Source of the DNA: Sphingomonas sp. Y38-1Y
GTDB taxonomy: Bacteria > Pseudomonadota > Alphaproteobacteria > Sphingomonadales > Sphingomonadaceae
Direction: 5' to 3'
Assembly (NCBI RefSeq): GCF_032391395.1
Contig: NZ_CP135916.1
Span: 1,488,001 to 1,552,000 of the forward strand
DNA length: 64,000 nt
Shown: positions 25,515 to 31,571 of the stretch, in pieces
How positions within the stretch are numbered: position 1 is the first letter of the stretch
How the letters are laid out: each line of letters begins with the position of its first letter
Translations under genes and position numbers: made by a program
The notes under the pieces: generated by a model
What the model saw: only the letters and a program-made list of their open reading frames with translations
Told to the model about the DNA's origin: nothing
Databases searched by the model: none

Positions 25515-25562
25515 TGACGGAGACGCTGGTCTGAACCCGTGAACCGTAATAGGCGCGCGCCG

Positions 25563-26060
25563 ATGGAGCCCGAGAAACTGCCCCGCGCCGACCCGGCGCC
25601 AAGCCTGGCCGACCGGCTGGGAACGGCGGCGCGGCGCGGTGAGGACACGGGCCGGCAGGGTGCGCGCATCGGCTGGCTGCTGGCGGTGCTGCTGCCGGCG
25701 GGGCCGGTACTGACGATGCTGGGCGCGGACTGGTTGGCGGTGCGCGAGCGGGCGGCGGCGGCGGTGCAGACCGGCGGGGAGGCGAGCCGGGCGGAGCGGC
25801 ACTCGCTCGCGCGGCTGGGCGGATCGGGCTTCGCGCCGGTCCTCGACGGCGTCGTGCGGGTGTTGGCGGCCGAGGATCGACTCGCCTCGCTGGCGGTGGT
25901 GCGCGACGAAGAGGGCGAGCGGCTGGGCGCCGAGATCGCCACTGCCGATCCCGATCGCCTGCGCGCCTCGCTCGCCCGGGCTGGCGCCGGCCGGTTTCGC
26001 GTCACCGGCGAGCGGCGAGGTGAGGGCGTGCTGATCGTCTCGGTGGAGGGACGGCCGTGA
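25563..26060 (+). CDS. GspL/PilN-like inner-membrane protein (accessory set)
   Basis: The 165-residue protein has a short cytoplasmic N-terminus, one membrane helix (about residues 38-58: GWLLAVLLPAGPVLTMLGADWL) and a small C-terminal alpha/beta domain (DGVVRVLAAEDRLASLAVVRD ... ADPDRLRASL ... GEGVLIVSVEG). It resembles the periplasmic end of GspL/PilN, without the actin-like cytoplasmic part. It is the first of three overlapping genes whose products look like L-, M- and C/P-type inner-membrane platform parts. GTG 25539 is an alternative start. The assignment is by pattern and context only. Confidence 0.6.
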   Translation: MEPEKLPRADPAPSLADRLGTAARRGEDTGRQGARIGWLLAVLLPAGPVLTMLGADWLAVRERAAAAVQTGGEASRAERHSLARLGGSGFAPVLDGVVRVLAAEDRLASLAVVRDEEGERLGAEIATADPDRLRASLARAGAGRFRVTGERRGEGVLIVSVEGRP

Positions 26061-26509
26061 CGCGCGCGGCGCTGATCGGCGGCGGGGTCGGCGCGGCGCT
26101 CGCGGCATTGGCGTGGCCGTCGGCGCGGGCGTCGCTTGATCGGCTCGATGCGGTTCGCGCAGGGGTGGCGGAGGACCGCGCTCAGGCGGCGCCGGTCGAT
26201 ACGGTACCGAATGCGGCGTGGCGGTTGCGCGCGGGATCGGCGCCGTCGGCGCTCGCGTCCGTCGCGCAGCGGGTGCGGCAGGCAGCGTCGGGCAACGGGG
26301 TTCTGGTCGAGCGAGAGGCGGCCGCTGACCCGATCGGGCCGGGCGTCGCGCAGATCGACCTGACCCTGTCGGGGCCGGAAAAGGCGGTGCTCGCGATCGC
26401 CGATCGCGTCGAACGGGAGGGGGCGGGCGCGCGCTGGCAGTCGTGGCGGCTCCAGCCGGCGCCGGGCGGTGTGCGGCTAAGCGGTAGCGTCGCGGTCGCG
26501 TGGCGATGA
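26057..26509 (+). CDS. GspM/PilO-like protein (accessory set)
   Basis: The 150-residue protein has an N-terminal membrane helix (ALIGGGVGAALAALAW), a short coiled stretch and a ferredoxin-like domain (SALASVAQRVRQAASGNGVLVERE ... AQIDLTLSGPEKAVLAIADRVE ... WQSWRLQPAPGGVRLSGSVAVAW), the order and size of GspM subtype b and PilO. Such proteins link the inner-membrane platform to the periplasmic pseudopilus or pilus. Its start overlaps the preceding stop by four bases and its stop overlaps the next start (ATGA). Confidence 0.65.
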   Translation: MTRAALIGGGVGAALAALAWPSARASLDRLDAVRAGVAEDRAQAAPVDTVPNAAWRLRAGSAPSALASVAQRVRQAASGNGVLVEREAAADPIGPGVAQIDLTLSGPEKAVLAIADRVEREGAGARWQSWRLQPAPGGVRLSGSVAVAWR

Positions 26510-26898
26510 AGCGACTCGCCATCCTGCTGGTGGTGATCGCGCTGGGGTTGCCGGCGTTGTTGCTCGGCACGCGAATGGGCGGCGCGGCCGACGTCATGGT
26601 CGAGCCCGCGGAGCCGATCGAGTTTCGCACCCCGCCGCCGCTCGCCGCGGCGCTGGAGCGGCCTTTGTTCGAGGGCGAGGGCGCCGCACCGCTCCCCGCC
26701 GATGCGCCCGAGTTGATCGGCATCGCCGGCCGGCTCGATCGCGATGCGGTGGCGATGGTGCGCGGGCGTGACGGCACGGTGCGGACATTGAAGCCGGGCG
26801 AAGGGATCGACGGCTGGCAGCTGCGCAGCCTGGCCATCGACGCGGCCTATTTCACGCGTGGCGGGCAGTCGGCGCGCGTCGCGATGCCGGGCGAATAG
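26506..26898 (+). CDS. GspC/GspN/PilP-like periplasmic protein (accessory set)
   Basis: The 130-residue protein has an N-terminal membrane anchor (LAILLVVIALGLPALLLGTRM) and a short periplasmic domain with the pattern ERPLFEGEG ... PELIGIAGRLDRDAVAMVRGRDGTVRTLKPGEGIDGWQLRSL. This resembles the homology region of GspC or the PilP/GspN-type proteins that touch the secretin. It lies just before the convergent hibernation-factor genes and shares the secretion locus, so it probably works with GspD. ATG 26506 overlaps the preceding stop. Confidence 0.6.
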   Translation: MKRLAILLVVIALGLPALLLGTRMGGAADVMVEPAEPIEFRTPPPLAAALERPLFEGEGAAPLPADAPELIGIAGRLDRDAVAMVRGRDGTVRTLKPGEGIDGWQLRSLAIDAAYFTRGGQSARVAMPGE

Positions 26899-29653: not shown

Positions 29654-30334
29654 CTAGCGTAGCGGGACGGTGAGCGTCATCGGCTTGCCGTCGCGAAGAA
29701 CCTGAAGTTGCGCCGAGCCGCTGGCCTGCGCCGCGGCGAACGCGGCCTGGTCGGCGGCACCGCGGCCGAGCGCCTGGCCGTTGACCGACTGGACAACGTC
29801 GCCCGGTCGCATCCCCGGCAGCGAGCCGCTGCCGATGCGATAGCCGCCATCGGTCGGCGTCGCATCAAGCCGCTGGAGCAGCGCGGCCGGATCGGGGAAG
29901 GCGAGGAACTCGACACGGCCGGCATTGTCGAGGAGGATGCGGTCGCGCTGGATCGACTGGATGGTCGCACCGCCGAGCGCCTCGCCGACGCGGACGGCGC
30001 GCGCGGTGCCGCCCGCCTCGCTGACATAGGCGACGGCGAAGCTCTGCGGGATCGCGAAGACCACGCCCTTCAGCACCAGCTGGATCGAGGTCGGGACTGC
30101 CTGTTCGGTCTGGGCCGCGCGGCCGAACGGGCTCCAGGCGAGCGCGGGCGATAGGTCCGGCGGCGGCACCGGGCGGCTGCCCGATGGAACGGTGATCGCG
30201 CCCTGCCCGGCATGACCCGCCAGCCGCCAGGTCAGGCCGGCGAGCGCGAACGCGACCGACACCACCATCACGCCCGTCACGAGATCGAGCGCAATTCGCT
30301 GTTGCCGGGGATTGAGGTCGAGCGCGCGCTTCAT
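29654..30334 (-). CDS. gspC: Type II secretion protein GspC with PDZ domain
   Basis: The 226-residue protein has a short cytoplasmic start, a membrane helix (about residues 16-38: LVTGVMVVSVAFALAGLTW) and a Pro-rich linker. The homology region LAWSPFGRA ... QLVLKGVVFA ... YVSEAGGTARAVRVGEAL binds GspD, and a C-terminal PDZ domain (GMRPGDVVQSVNGQALG) completes it. GspC couples the inner-membrane platform to the secretin. ATG 30334 overlaps the gspI stop (ATGA). gspC is not first in the cluster as in most systems. Confidence 0.93.
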   Translation of the reverse strand: MKRALDLNPRQQRIALDLVTGVMVVSVAFALAGLTWRLAGHAGQGAITVPSGSRPVPPPDLSPALAWSPFGRAAQTEQAVPTSIQLVLKGVVFAIPQSFAVAYVSEAGGTARAVRVGEALGGATIQSIQRDRILLDNAGRVEFLAFPDPAALLQRLDATPTDGGYRIGSGSLPGMRPGDVVQSVNGQALGRGAADQAAFAAAQASGSAQLQVLRDGKPMTLTVPLR

Positions 30335-30891
30335 GCGCCTTCTGCGTCCACGAAACCGTCGAGCGATGCAAGCGGCGAGGCCTGCCGGGCGCCGCTTTCG
30401 AACACGTCGATGCGCACGCGGCGGATGGCGGGATCGTCGGTCGCGCGCTCGGCGACGGCGATGCGCCAGCGGCGGCCCATCATCTCGACCTCGTTCGCGC
30501 CGTCGATCCGCGCCTCGATCTCGGCGAGGCGGTTCTCGGCGACCCACATCGCCGCTTGCCGCCCCTCCATCGCGCGGGTCGAGTCGATGTGCGTTTCGAC
30601 GGTGCGGACCAGCCCGACGGTGGCGATGGCGAGGATCGCGAGCGCGACGAGCGCCTCGATGAGGGAGAAGCCGGCGGTTGCGTCGTTCGGGGCACGTCCT
30701 TCGACAGGCTCAGGACGAACGGAGTGGGTGGGCCCCGAGCCCCCTCCATCGTTCGTCCTGAGCCTGTCGAAGGACGTGCCAAGAGCGATGCGGCGTGTGG
30801 CTGAACCACCCCCGTTCGTCCTGAGCTTGTCGAAGGACGTGTCCAAAACGCTGCGCCCAGTTTGGGGCCGAGGGAGAACGCGCACCCTCAT
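30331..30891 (-). CDS. gspI: Minor pseudopilin GspI with a repeat-extended leader
   Basis: The mature part (residues 75-186) is a normal GspI: cleavage site G74-F75, SLIEALVALAILAI with Glu at +5, then VRTVETHIDSTRAMEGRQAAMWVAENRLAEIEA. The only plausible start is ATG 30891, which overlaps the gspH stop (ATGA); between it and the cleavage site the frame runs through three copies of a 30-bp repeat (30691-30844). The predicted leader is therefore 74 residues, against roughly 6-25 usual, and includes FDKLRTN and FDRLRTN from translated repeats. GspI is a tip pseudopilin; whether this leader is inserted and cleaved correctly is unknown. Confidence 0.9.
   Translation of the reverse strand: MRVRVLPRPQTGRSVLDTSFDKLRTNGGGSATRRIALGTSFDRLRTNDGGGSGPTHSVRPEPVEGRAPNDATAGFSLIEALVALAILAIATVGLVRTVETHIDSTRAMEGRQAAMWVAENRLAEIEARIDGANEVEMMGRRWRIAVAERATDDPAIRRVRIDVFESGARQASPLASLDGFVDAEGA
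30691..30844. repeat. Three copies of a 30-bp sphingomonad-type repeat inside gspI
   Basis: The motif GTTCGTCCTGAGC(C/T)TGTC followed by GAAGGACGTG occurs at 30751-30780 and, with one C-to-T change, at 30814-30844. It lies in the opposite direction at 30691-30720. The first two form a perfect 30-bp inverted repeat around a 30-base spacer. All three lie within the gspI leader region. From memory, similar elements are frequent in sphingomonad genomes. Confidence 0.9.
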
Positions 30892-31571
30892 GTTCCCGGC
30901 ACCACGCGGGCGGTGAGGCCGTCATAGGCGACGCTGACCGACTGGCCGCGCTCGGCGATGACAGCGATCAGCGGCTTGCCCGACCCCTCGGGGCCGAGCA
31001 CGACCGGCGGCTTGGCCGACAGCCGCATCGTCATGCCGCCGGGGAGCGGATGAAAGCCGAGCGCGTCGCCGCCCACCGGCTGCCACGTCTGGCCGTCGAA
31101 GCGCGCGAAGCCGTAGCCGGTCTTCTCAGCGGTGAAGGCGACGAGGGCGTCGCCGAGCATCGCGTCGTCGGCAGCGGCCTGAAGCCGTTCGGCAAGCCGC
31201 TGCGCCTCGCTCTGTACGGACGGCGCGCGAGTGGCGGCGCCGATTCCGAGCGTGACCGCACCGGCCGCGACCGCAATGATCGCGAGGACGATCAGCATCT
31301 CGATCAGGGTCATGCCGGATTGCCCCCCGGCCGACGCGCCACCGTGCTCCCGCGAAGGCGGGAGCCCAGGGCCAAGCAGGACCGGCCGCCATTGCGCTCT
31401 TGACCCAAGGCTCCCGCCTTCGCGGGAGCACGGGACCTTTCCTGCATGATCGTCACCCCGGACTTGTTCCGGGGTCCACCGGACCGCAAGTGCCGCGGCG
31501 GCCGGGTACGCGGCAAGGTGGACCCCGGAACAGGTCCGGGGTGACGAAGAAGGACGAGATGGGAGGCTCAC
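30888..31571 (-). CDS. gspH: Pseudopilin GspH with a repeat-extended or disrupted leader
   Basis: The mature sequence starts after Gly86: MTLIEMLIVLAIIAVAAGAV with Glu at +5, then SEAQRLAERLQAAADDAMLGDALVAF and a beta-rich globular end, as in GspH. The only ATG/GTG/TTG start in this frame upstream of the cleavage site is GTG 31571, giving an 86-residue leader encoded across two palindromic repeats (31342-31433 and 31451-31546). An ATG overlapping the gspG stop (31608) reads only 11 codons before a stop in another frame and may be the relic of the original start. The gene may thus be functional with a long leader or impaired. It overlaps gspI by four bases. Confidence 0.82.
   Translation of the reverse strand: MSLPSRPSSSPRTCSGVHLAAYPAAAALAVRWTPEQVRGDDHAGKVPCSREGGSLGSRAQWRPVLLGPGLPPSREHGGASAGGQSGMTLIEMLIVLAIIAVAAGAVTLGIGAATRAPSVQSEAQRLAERLQAAADDAMLGDALVAFTAEKTGYGFARFDGQTWQPVGGDALGFHPLPGGMTMRLSAKPPVVLGPEGSGKPLIAVIAERGQSVSVAYDGLTARVVPGT
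31342..31433. repeat. Palindromic repeat with perfect 25-bp arms, in gspH leader
   Basis: Arms at 31342-31366 and 31409-31433 are exact reverse complements (core CTCCCGCGAAGGCGGGAG) separated by 42 bases. A diverged relative lies at 56498-56627. There is no transposase nearby; it looks like a non-autonomous REP/MITE-type element. Confidence 0.88.
31451..31546. repeat. Palindromic GTCACCCCGGA-type repeat, in gspH leader
   Basis: Two 30-base arms (31451-31480 and 31517-31546) pair with a single mismatch that still allows G-U. The same element recurs between gspE and gspF (35130-35224) and, more diverged, at 54253-54338. It lies 18 bases from the 25-bp-arm element. Confidence 0.88.

Follow-up and report, generated by a model that had tools for sequence, protein, structure and literature searches.

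Palindromic repeats in the prepilin leader of the minor pseudopilin GspI of Sphingomonas: apparent recurrent in-frame insertion

The window analysed here, a stretch of 64,000 nucleotides from Sphingomonas sp. Y38-1Y, contains a cluster of type II secretion genes in which gspG, gspI, gspC, gspD, gspL, gspM, gspE and gspF were recognized by Pfam matches, and gspH by an N_methyl match and its position (Table 1). The name gspH rests partly on position because the TIGR01708 score of its product (68.0 bits) is under the cut-off of 80. The gspI product matches PF02501 (57.2 bits; cut-off 25), PF07963 (26.8 bits; cut-off 21.2) and TIGR01707 (64.5 bits; cut-off 44.35) and carries the Gly-1/Phe+1/Glu+5 motif, which places it in the GspI family; it has gsp genes for neighbours, and the genome encodes a prepilin peptidase (C1:2785626; PF06750 and PF01478).

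Table 1. Features of the gspH-gspI region (positions in the window)
Feature	Positions	Strand	Details and basis
gspH	30888..31571	-	PF07963, 29.4 bits, and position
Second inverted-repeat pair in gspH leader, another family	31450..31547		arms 31450-31487 and 31510-31547; inverted-repeat search
Inverted-repeat pair in gspH leader	31342..31433		arms 31342-31376 and 31399-31433; inverted-repeat search
ATGA overlap of gspH stop and gspI start	30888..30891	-	read in sequence
gspI, type II secretion minor pseudopilin, 186 codons	30331..30891	-	PF02501, PF07963 and TIGR01707 matches
Prepilin leader, 74 residues, repeats inside	30670..30891	-	from ATG 30891 to cleavage Gly codon 30672-30670
REP copy	30814..30840	+	genome REP pattern search (1518814-1518840 on contig), 0 mismatches
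REP copy in one arm (30750-30780) of perfect 31-bp inverted repeat	30751..30777	+	REP pattern search
REP copy, opposite orientation, in other arm (30691-30721)	30694..30720 (about)	-	core 30696-30718; inverted-repeat search
Leader part next to cleavage site, NDATAG	30670..30687	-	compared with M[NK]EEG/F of relatives
Mature GspI, F+1 and E+5, intact	30331..30669	-	sequence, motif, selection

A preliminary description of this locus had pointed to three repeat copies lying in frame between ATG 30891 and the GspI cleavage site, and to a resulting leader of 74 residues whose ATG overlaps the gspH stop; the coordinates, the open reading frame and the position of the cleavage glycine bear this out, and the leader is far longer than the 6-26 aa described for prepilins (PMC4471445). 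The same description took this ATG for the only plausible start, which is too strict, since GTG (leader of 72 residues) and TTG (leader of 59 residues) codons are also in frame, but neither removes the repeats, and a database copy of the protein (P0001, 171 aa), which begins at the TTG, still includes them. Within 20 codons of the cleavage site, the window gene has no ATG, GTG or TTG and no CTG, ATT, ATC or ATA. The inverted repeat in the leader, previously given as 30 bp, is indeed perfect, its exact length being 31 bp.

The repeats are copies of a short palindrome that is abundant in this genome, as expected of REP and REPIN elements: with up to 3 mismatches allowed, the pattern has 184 matches in the 3.58 Mb genome (96 forward, 88 reverse) as against 0 for the reversed control, and the matches listed include numerous inverted pairs with a spacing of about 50 bp. 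The 23-nt REP core matches the window three times (up to 3 mismatches), versus 0.00 expected from 100 shuffles. The copy at about 30694-30720 is absent from the genome pattern listing and was seen in the sequence and in the inverted-repeat and core searches. The tetranucleotide CGTC, an unpaired tag at one end of REPs, is present in the repeat and, as read here, appears to fall in the stem. A RAYT (Y1 transposase, PF01797) was considered as the source of these REPs and dropped, as this one genome has no match to the profile (0/1), which matches 5 of 14 controls; a RAYT in the same genome is not known to be required of every REP family. In a crude coding-potential test, which by design is blind to N-terminal cases, none of 30 loci around perfect REP copies lay inside a coding frame running through; the 30 contain three pairs that overlap, and gspI itself is one of these pairs.

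Patterns derived from mature GspI only were used to scan one genome per species, and 80 loci were kept of 96 relatives. The window and L033 were added by hand, the latter chosen for its long leader, giving 82 loci (L032, L034-L038 and L040 seem to duplicate contigs already represented in the scan; L039, with a leader of 6 residues, and the weaker matches L041-L060 are outside these counts). At all but one of these loci (81/82), an NTG codon that overlaps the gspH stop begins a reading frame that continues, in phase and without a stop, into mature GspI. The overlap is ATGA at 45 of all 82 loci, GTGA at 33, CTGA at 3 and TTGA at 1, and at two loci (L074 and L083) the overlap uses a CTG codon with ATG immediately after it. 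The sole locus out of phase, L086, has a 5-residue start of its own after the gspH stop. Leaders at the in-phase loci range from 5 to 74 residues; 46 of the 81 are no longer than 18 residues and the other 35 have 21-74, with the phase kept and no stop codon in 35/35. Sphingomonas hankookensis and S. gei are among the relatives with a long leader. When the two hand-added loci are left aside, 79/80 loci are open and in phase, and so are 33/33 long leaders. The two other frames of the long leaders are open in 21/35 and 20/35 cases, and shuffled inserts average 18.2/35; in this GC-rich DNA, chance alone often leaves such frames open. The 35 long leaders are not independent, as inserts are shared among related species; single-linkage clustering of the inserts at the nucleotide level yields 11 clusters and, with one insert per cluster, the probability of the phase alone is (1/3)^11 = 5.6e-6. 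As a control, we used the gspI-gspC junction, which is coupled as well (ATGA 69, GTAA 10, GTGA 2); no leader-like insert was found there in 81/81 cases, GspC having 28-39 codons before a fixed motif (the incomplete L137 is excluded from the GspC count). The gspG-gspH gap is not a clean control because gspH often seems to own an overlapping start; its length modulo 3 is 2 at 53 of 79 loci, 1 at 19 and 0 at 7.

The comparison with close relatives that the preliminary description had proposed speaks against a long leader common to all of them: the four nearest in the tree (L061-L064, namely S. yantingensis, S. spermidinifaciens and two MAGs) share the ATGA overlap with the window, but a 5-residue leader, M[NK]EEG, follows it. 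In this tree, built from GspH, GspI and GspC, the state of the leader, long or short, changes 12 times, at least 10 of the changes being forced by starred branches, and the window has the only long leader in its clade of five. The long leader of the window is thus most simply seen as a gain on this lineage, although the tree alone cannot tell gain from loss. In 26/35 long leaders, the longest exact inverted repeat exceeds those of all 20 shuffles, and in 17/35 its arms are 15-34 nt long; no such inverted repeat was found in the 21-residue leader of L070. The repeats differ between loci. The inverted repeat in the leaders of L065 and L111 belongs to the CCGGACTTGTTCCGG family, a pattern with 100 matches in the L065 genome and 46 in that of L111, and the same palindrome is also found between gspG and gspH in the window and ahead of the GspJ gene of this genome. 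Repetition in the own genome was checked for two palindromes, the window REP and CCGGAC; the latter has matches in 13 of 14 genomes, with none in that of L067. Beyond the scan, a JGI protein from a 1,318-base contig (P0002; 88% identity, 82% of the query covered) has REP peptides in common with the window protein in a leader of 62 residues, another database protein (P0003) has a leader of 103 residues, and annotated starts give leaders of at least 21 residues in 51 of the 120 homologues listed of 587, a figure to which a long query contributes by favouring long matches. Apparently, then, hairpin repeats were inserted into the GspI leader in Sphingomonas several times and in frame, giving leaders far above the usual length.

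The mature part of GspI, noted before as intact, keeps F+1 and E+5 and is under purifying selection, with dN/dS of 0.18-0.22 when the window is compared with three near relatives. By contrast, pN/pS in long leaders is 0.47-1.62 (12 hand-chosen pairs, small counts). Acidic residues are kept beside the cleavage site, with the D+E fraction at 0.36 in the last six residues before Gly versus 0.06 in the rest of the leader, as would be expected if the repeats had entered behind the start codon and left a short stretch of the old leader next to Gly; NDATAG is probably such a remnant in the window.

A scenario that would account for these observations is that a group of REP palindromes inserted right after the gspI start codon, within a former leader of some 5-8 codons, with a length that kept the frame. 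Ribosomes finishing gspH would begin gspI at the ATGA and read on through the repeats, which would thereby form a cytoplasmic leader, and prepilin peptidase would cut after Gly74, releasing a normal mature pseudopilin. Tolerance of the long leader would follow from its remaining in the cytoplasm and being thrown away, provided that start codon, reading frame and the residues just before Gly are preserved. The repeats, the overlap, the frame with its openness in relatives, the intact and selected mature part and the peptidase gene can be read directly from the sequences; initiation at 30891, cleavage of the long precursor and working secretion are what we infer, and the reviewed range of 6-26 aa speaks against taking cleavage of a 74-residue leader for granted. 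With this proviso, we consider it very probable that the leader is a translated, in-frame REP array, started at the ATGA overlap and removed by prepilin peptidase, and for that reason tolerated. Of the three options raised in the preliminary description, a tolerated tail, another mode of starting and silencing, the first is accordingly favoured and the other two appear unlikely.

Conceivably, the hairpins are also kept for regulation, a possibility that adds to a tolerated leader and does not exclude it: a strong stem behind the coupled start might lower GspI output or alter mRNA decay and so set the dose of the minor pseudopilins. Indeed, the leader RNA is predicted to fold far more stably than shuffled sequences (mean z -6.77, 32/35 below -2), whereas equal lengths of the mature gene are not (-0.28, 2/35), 10 of the 14 long leaders in one clade retain a long helix, in which 5 of 47 pairs have changed on both sides, and the leader amino acids drift, as the pN/pS values above indicate. 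Palindromic repeats, however, fold wherever they are located, so that selection on the hairpin itself is no more than possible; covariation contributes little (-0.75 of -77.19 kcal/mol), more than half of the in-phase loci manage with the short leaders counted above, and three leaders are long but have no significant fold (L070, z +1.1; L122, -1.5; L096, -1.9). We therefore regard a regulatory role as possible but rather doubtful. In its most general and equally tentative form, this idea would be that palindromes in Sphingomonas have repeatedly landed in minor pseudopilin leaders and been exapted there, where the coding hairpin is selected as an RNA control of dose and the peptide drifts and is discarded.

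It appears far less likely that translation starts close to the cleavage site, leaving the repeats as an untranslated spacer, as suspected for many N-terminal REPs in PMC3733652. Apart from this precedent, an ATG, GTG or TTG within 20 residues of the site is available in 9/35 long leaders, and it is in only 9/35 that these codons are wholly absent past the first six. Nevertheless, the remaining 26/35 have none of them within 20 residues, the window gene lacks even near-cognate starts within that distance, and a spacer would have no need of the phase and openness kept in 35/35. A silenced and now decaying gspI, for which one could cite the size of the insertion, its strong predicted structure and its absence from the four nearest relatives, is similarly improbable given the intact frame, the purifying selection on the mature part, the domain matches in the other gsp genes of the window and the 34 other loci with the same kind of leader.

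The closest precedents are, by analogy, the Rickettsia palindromic elements and intragenic REPs. Rickettsia palindromic elements strike many unrelated genes (PMC10969869), and proteins with N-terminal RPE-1 are reported to be expressed (PMC3733652, PMC10969869). The likeness lies in palindromes situated in frame in protein genes, and the in-frame, stop-free insertion into an ORF that characterizes these elements is found here as well; the differences are that here different repeat families strike the same place, that the leader is expected to be cleaved and that the hosts are sphingomonads. The likeness concerns the mode of action, and we do not class the present repeats as members. The CGTC/GTAG REPs are high-copy palindromes, known from sphingomonads among others, some of which are located at ORF N-termini, as in gspI; intragenic REPs are known, but many N-terminal ones are held to be probably extragenic in PMC3733652, whereas the conservation of phase argues for translation in the present case. 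Neither "gsp" nor "pilin" has a match in the main text of that paper, the target-gene list of which is a separate additional file. As for class III signal peptides, the GspI leader resembles those of type IV prepilins in ending with Gly, followed by a hydrophobic stretch with E5, as a substrate of prepilin peptidase, and differs in length, even from type IVb prepilins with their about 15-30 aa (PMC4471445); leaders of 8-18 aa in the major pilins of S. sanguinis (PMC6497953) have been called very long (PMC10191384). In the titles and abstracts searched, a scope outside which most subscription papers lie, there is no report of translated repeats lengthening pseudopilin leaders.

The length of these leaders suggests that prepilin peptidase may accept cytoplasmic leaders several times beyond the reviewed range, and the natural series, from the shortest to the longest leader and on to the single database protein with 103 residues, can be used for testing leader tolerance. 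The prepilin leader emerges as a protein position where mobile repeats can enter at little cost. The phase test tells translated N-terminal repeats from misannotated ones, and the database start sites of many pseudopilins may need review.

The preliminary description covered a single gene, and the phenomenon is wider, as it recurs with different repeats in many Sphingomonas loci and extends in this genome to GspH and GspJ. In the window gspH, a single in-frame start precedes the cleavage site, GTG 31571, from which a leader of 86 residues, up to the G codon at 31316-31314, would read through two repeat families other than the gspI REP; residue +1 is itself an ATG and thus a possible start without a leader. 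In L061, L062 and L064, no GspH start lies nearer than 45-54 residues out, whereas L063 also has TTG codons at 22-31. The GspJ gene of this genome, at 257.8 kb, is in a second locus reached by the N_methyl search and was identified by PF11612 (34.7 bits; cut-off 28); a repeat pair follows one GTG, from which the leader would have 45 residues, but it may also begin at another GTG, 8 residues from the cleavage site. In G010, a palindrome is read through in a 36-residue GspJ leader, with alternative GTG codons at 13 and 10. Among 10 close loci out of a set of 30, GspJ could be read in 6, and the other 4 yielded no motif.

In this second locus (L143, about 256-259 kb on the contig), far from the main gsp cluster, gspJ and its preceding repeat pair are accompanied by an ORF that resembles gspK by eye and has no Pfam match; the T2SSK profile (PF03934) found no GspK. 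In L039 (G026), a small indel appears to break the second half of the gspH frame, which could be a sequencing error. A record titled Bacillus sp. 2B10 (L121) carries a Sphingomonas-type gsp locus and is therefore probably mislabelled or contaminated. Finally, at 25539-26898 of the window, beside a PhoX phosphatase gene, there are three small ORFs on the + strand with neither an NCBIfam match nor a Pfam match above cut-off, which by eye are similar to GspL, GspM and GspC and are, perhaps, a second, reduced secretion set.
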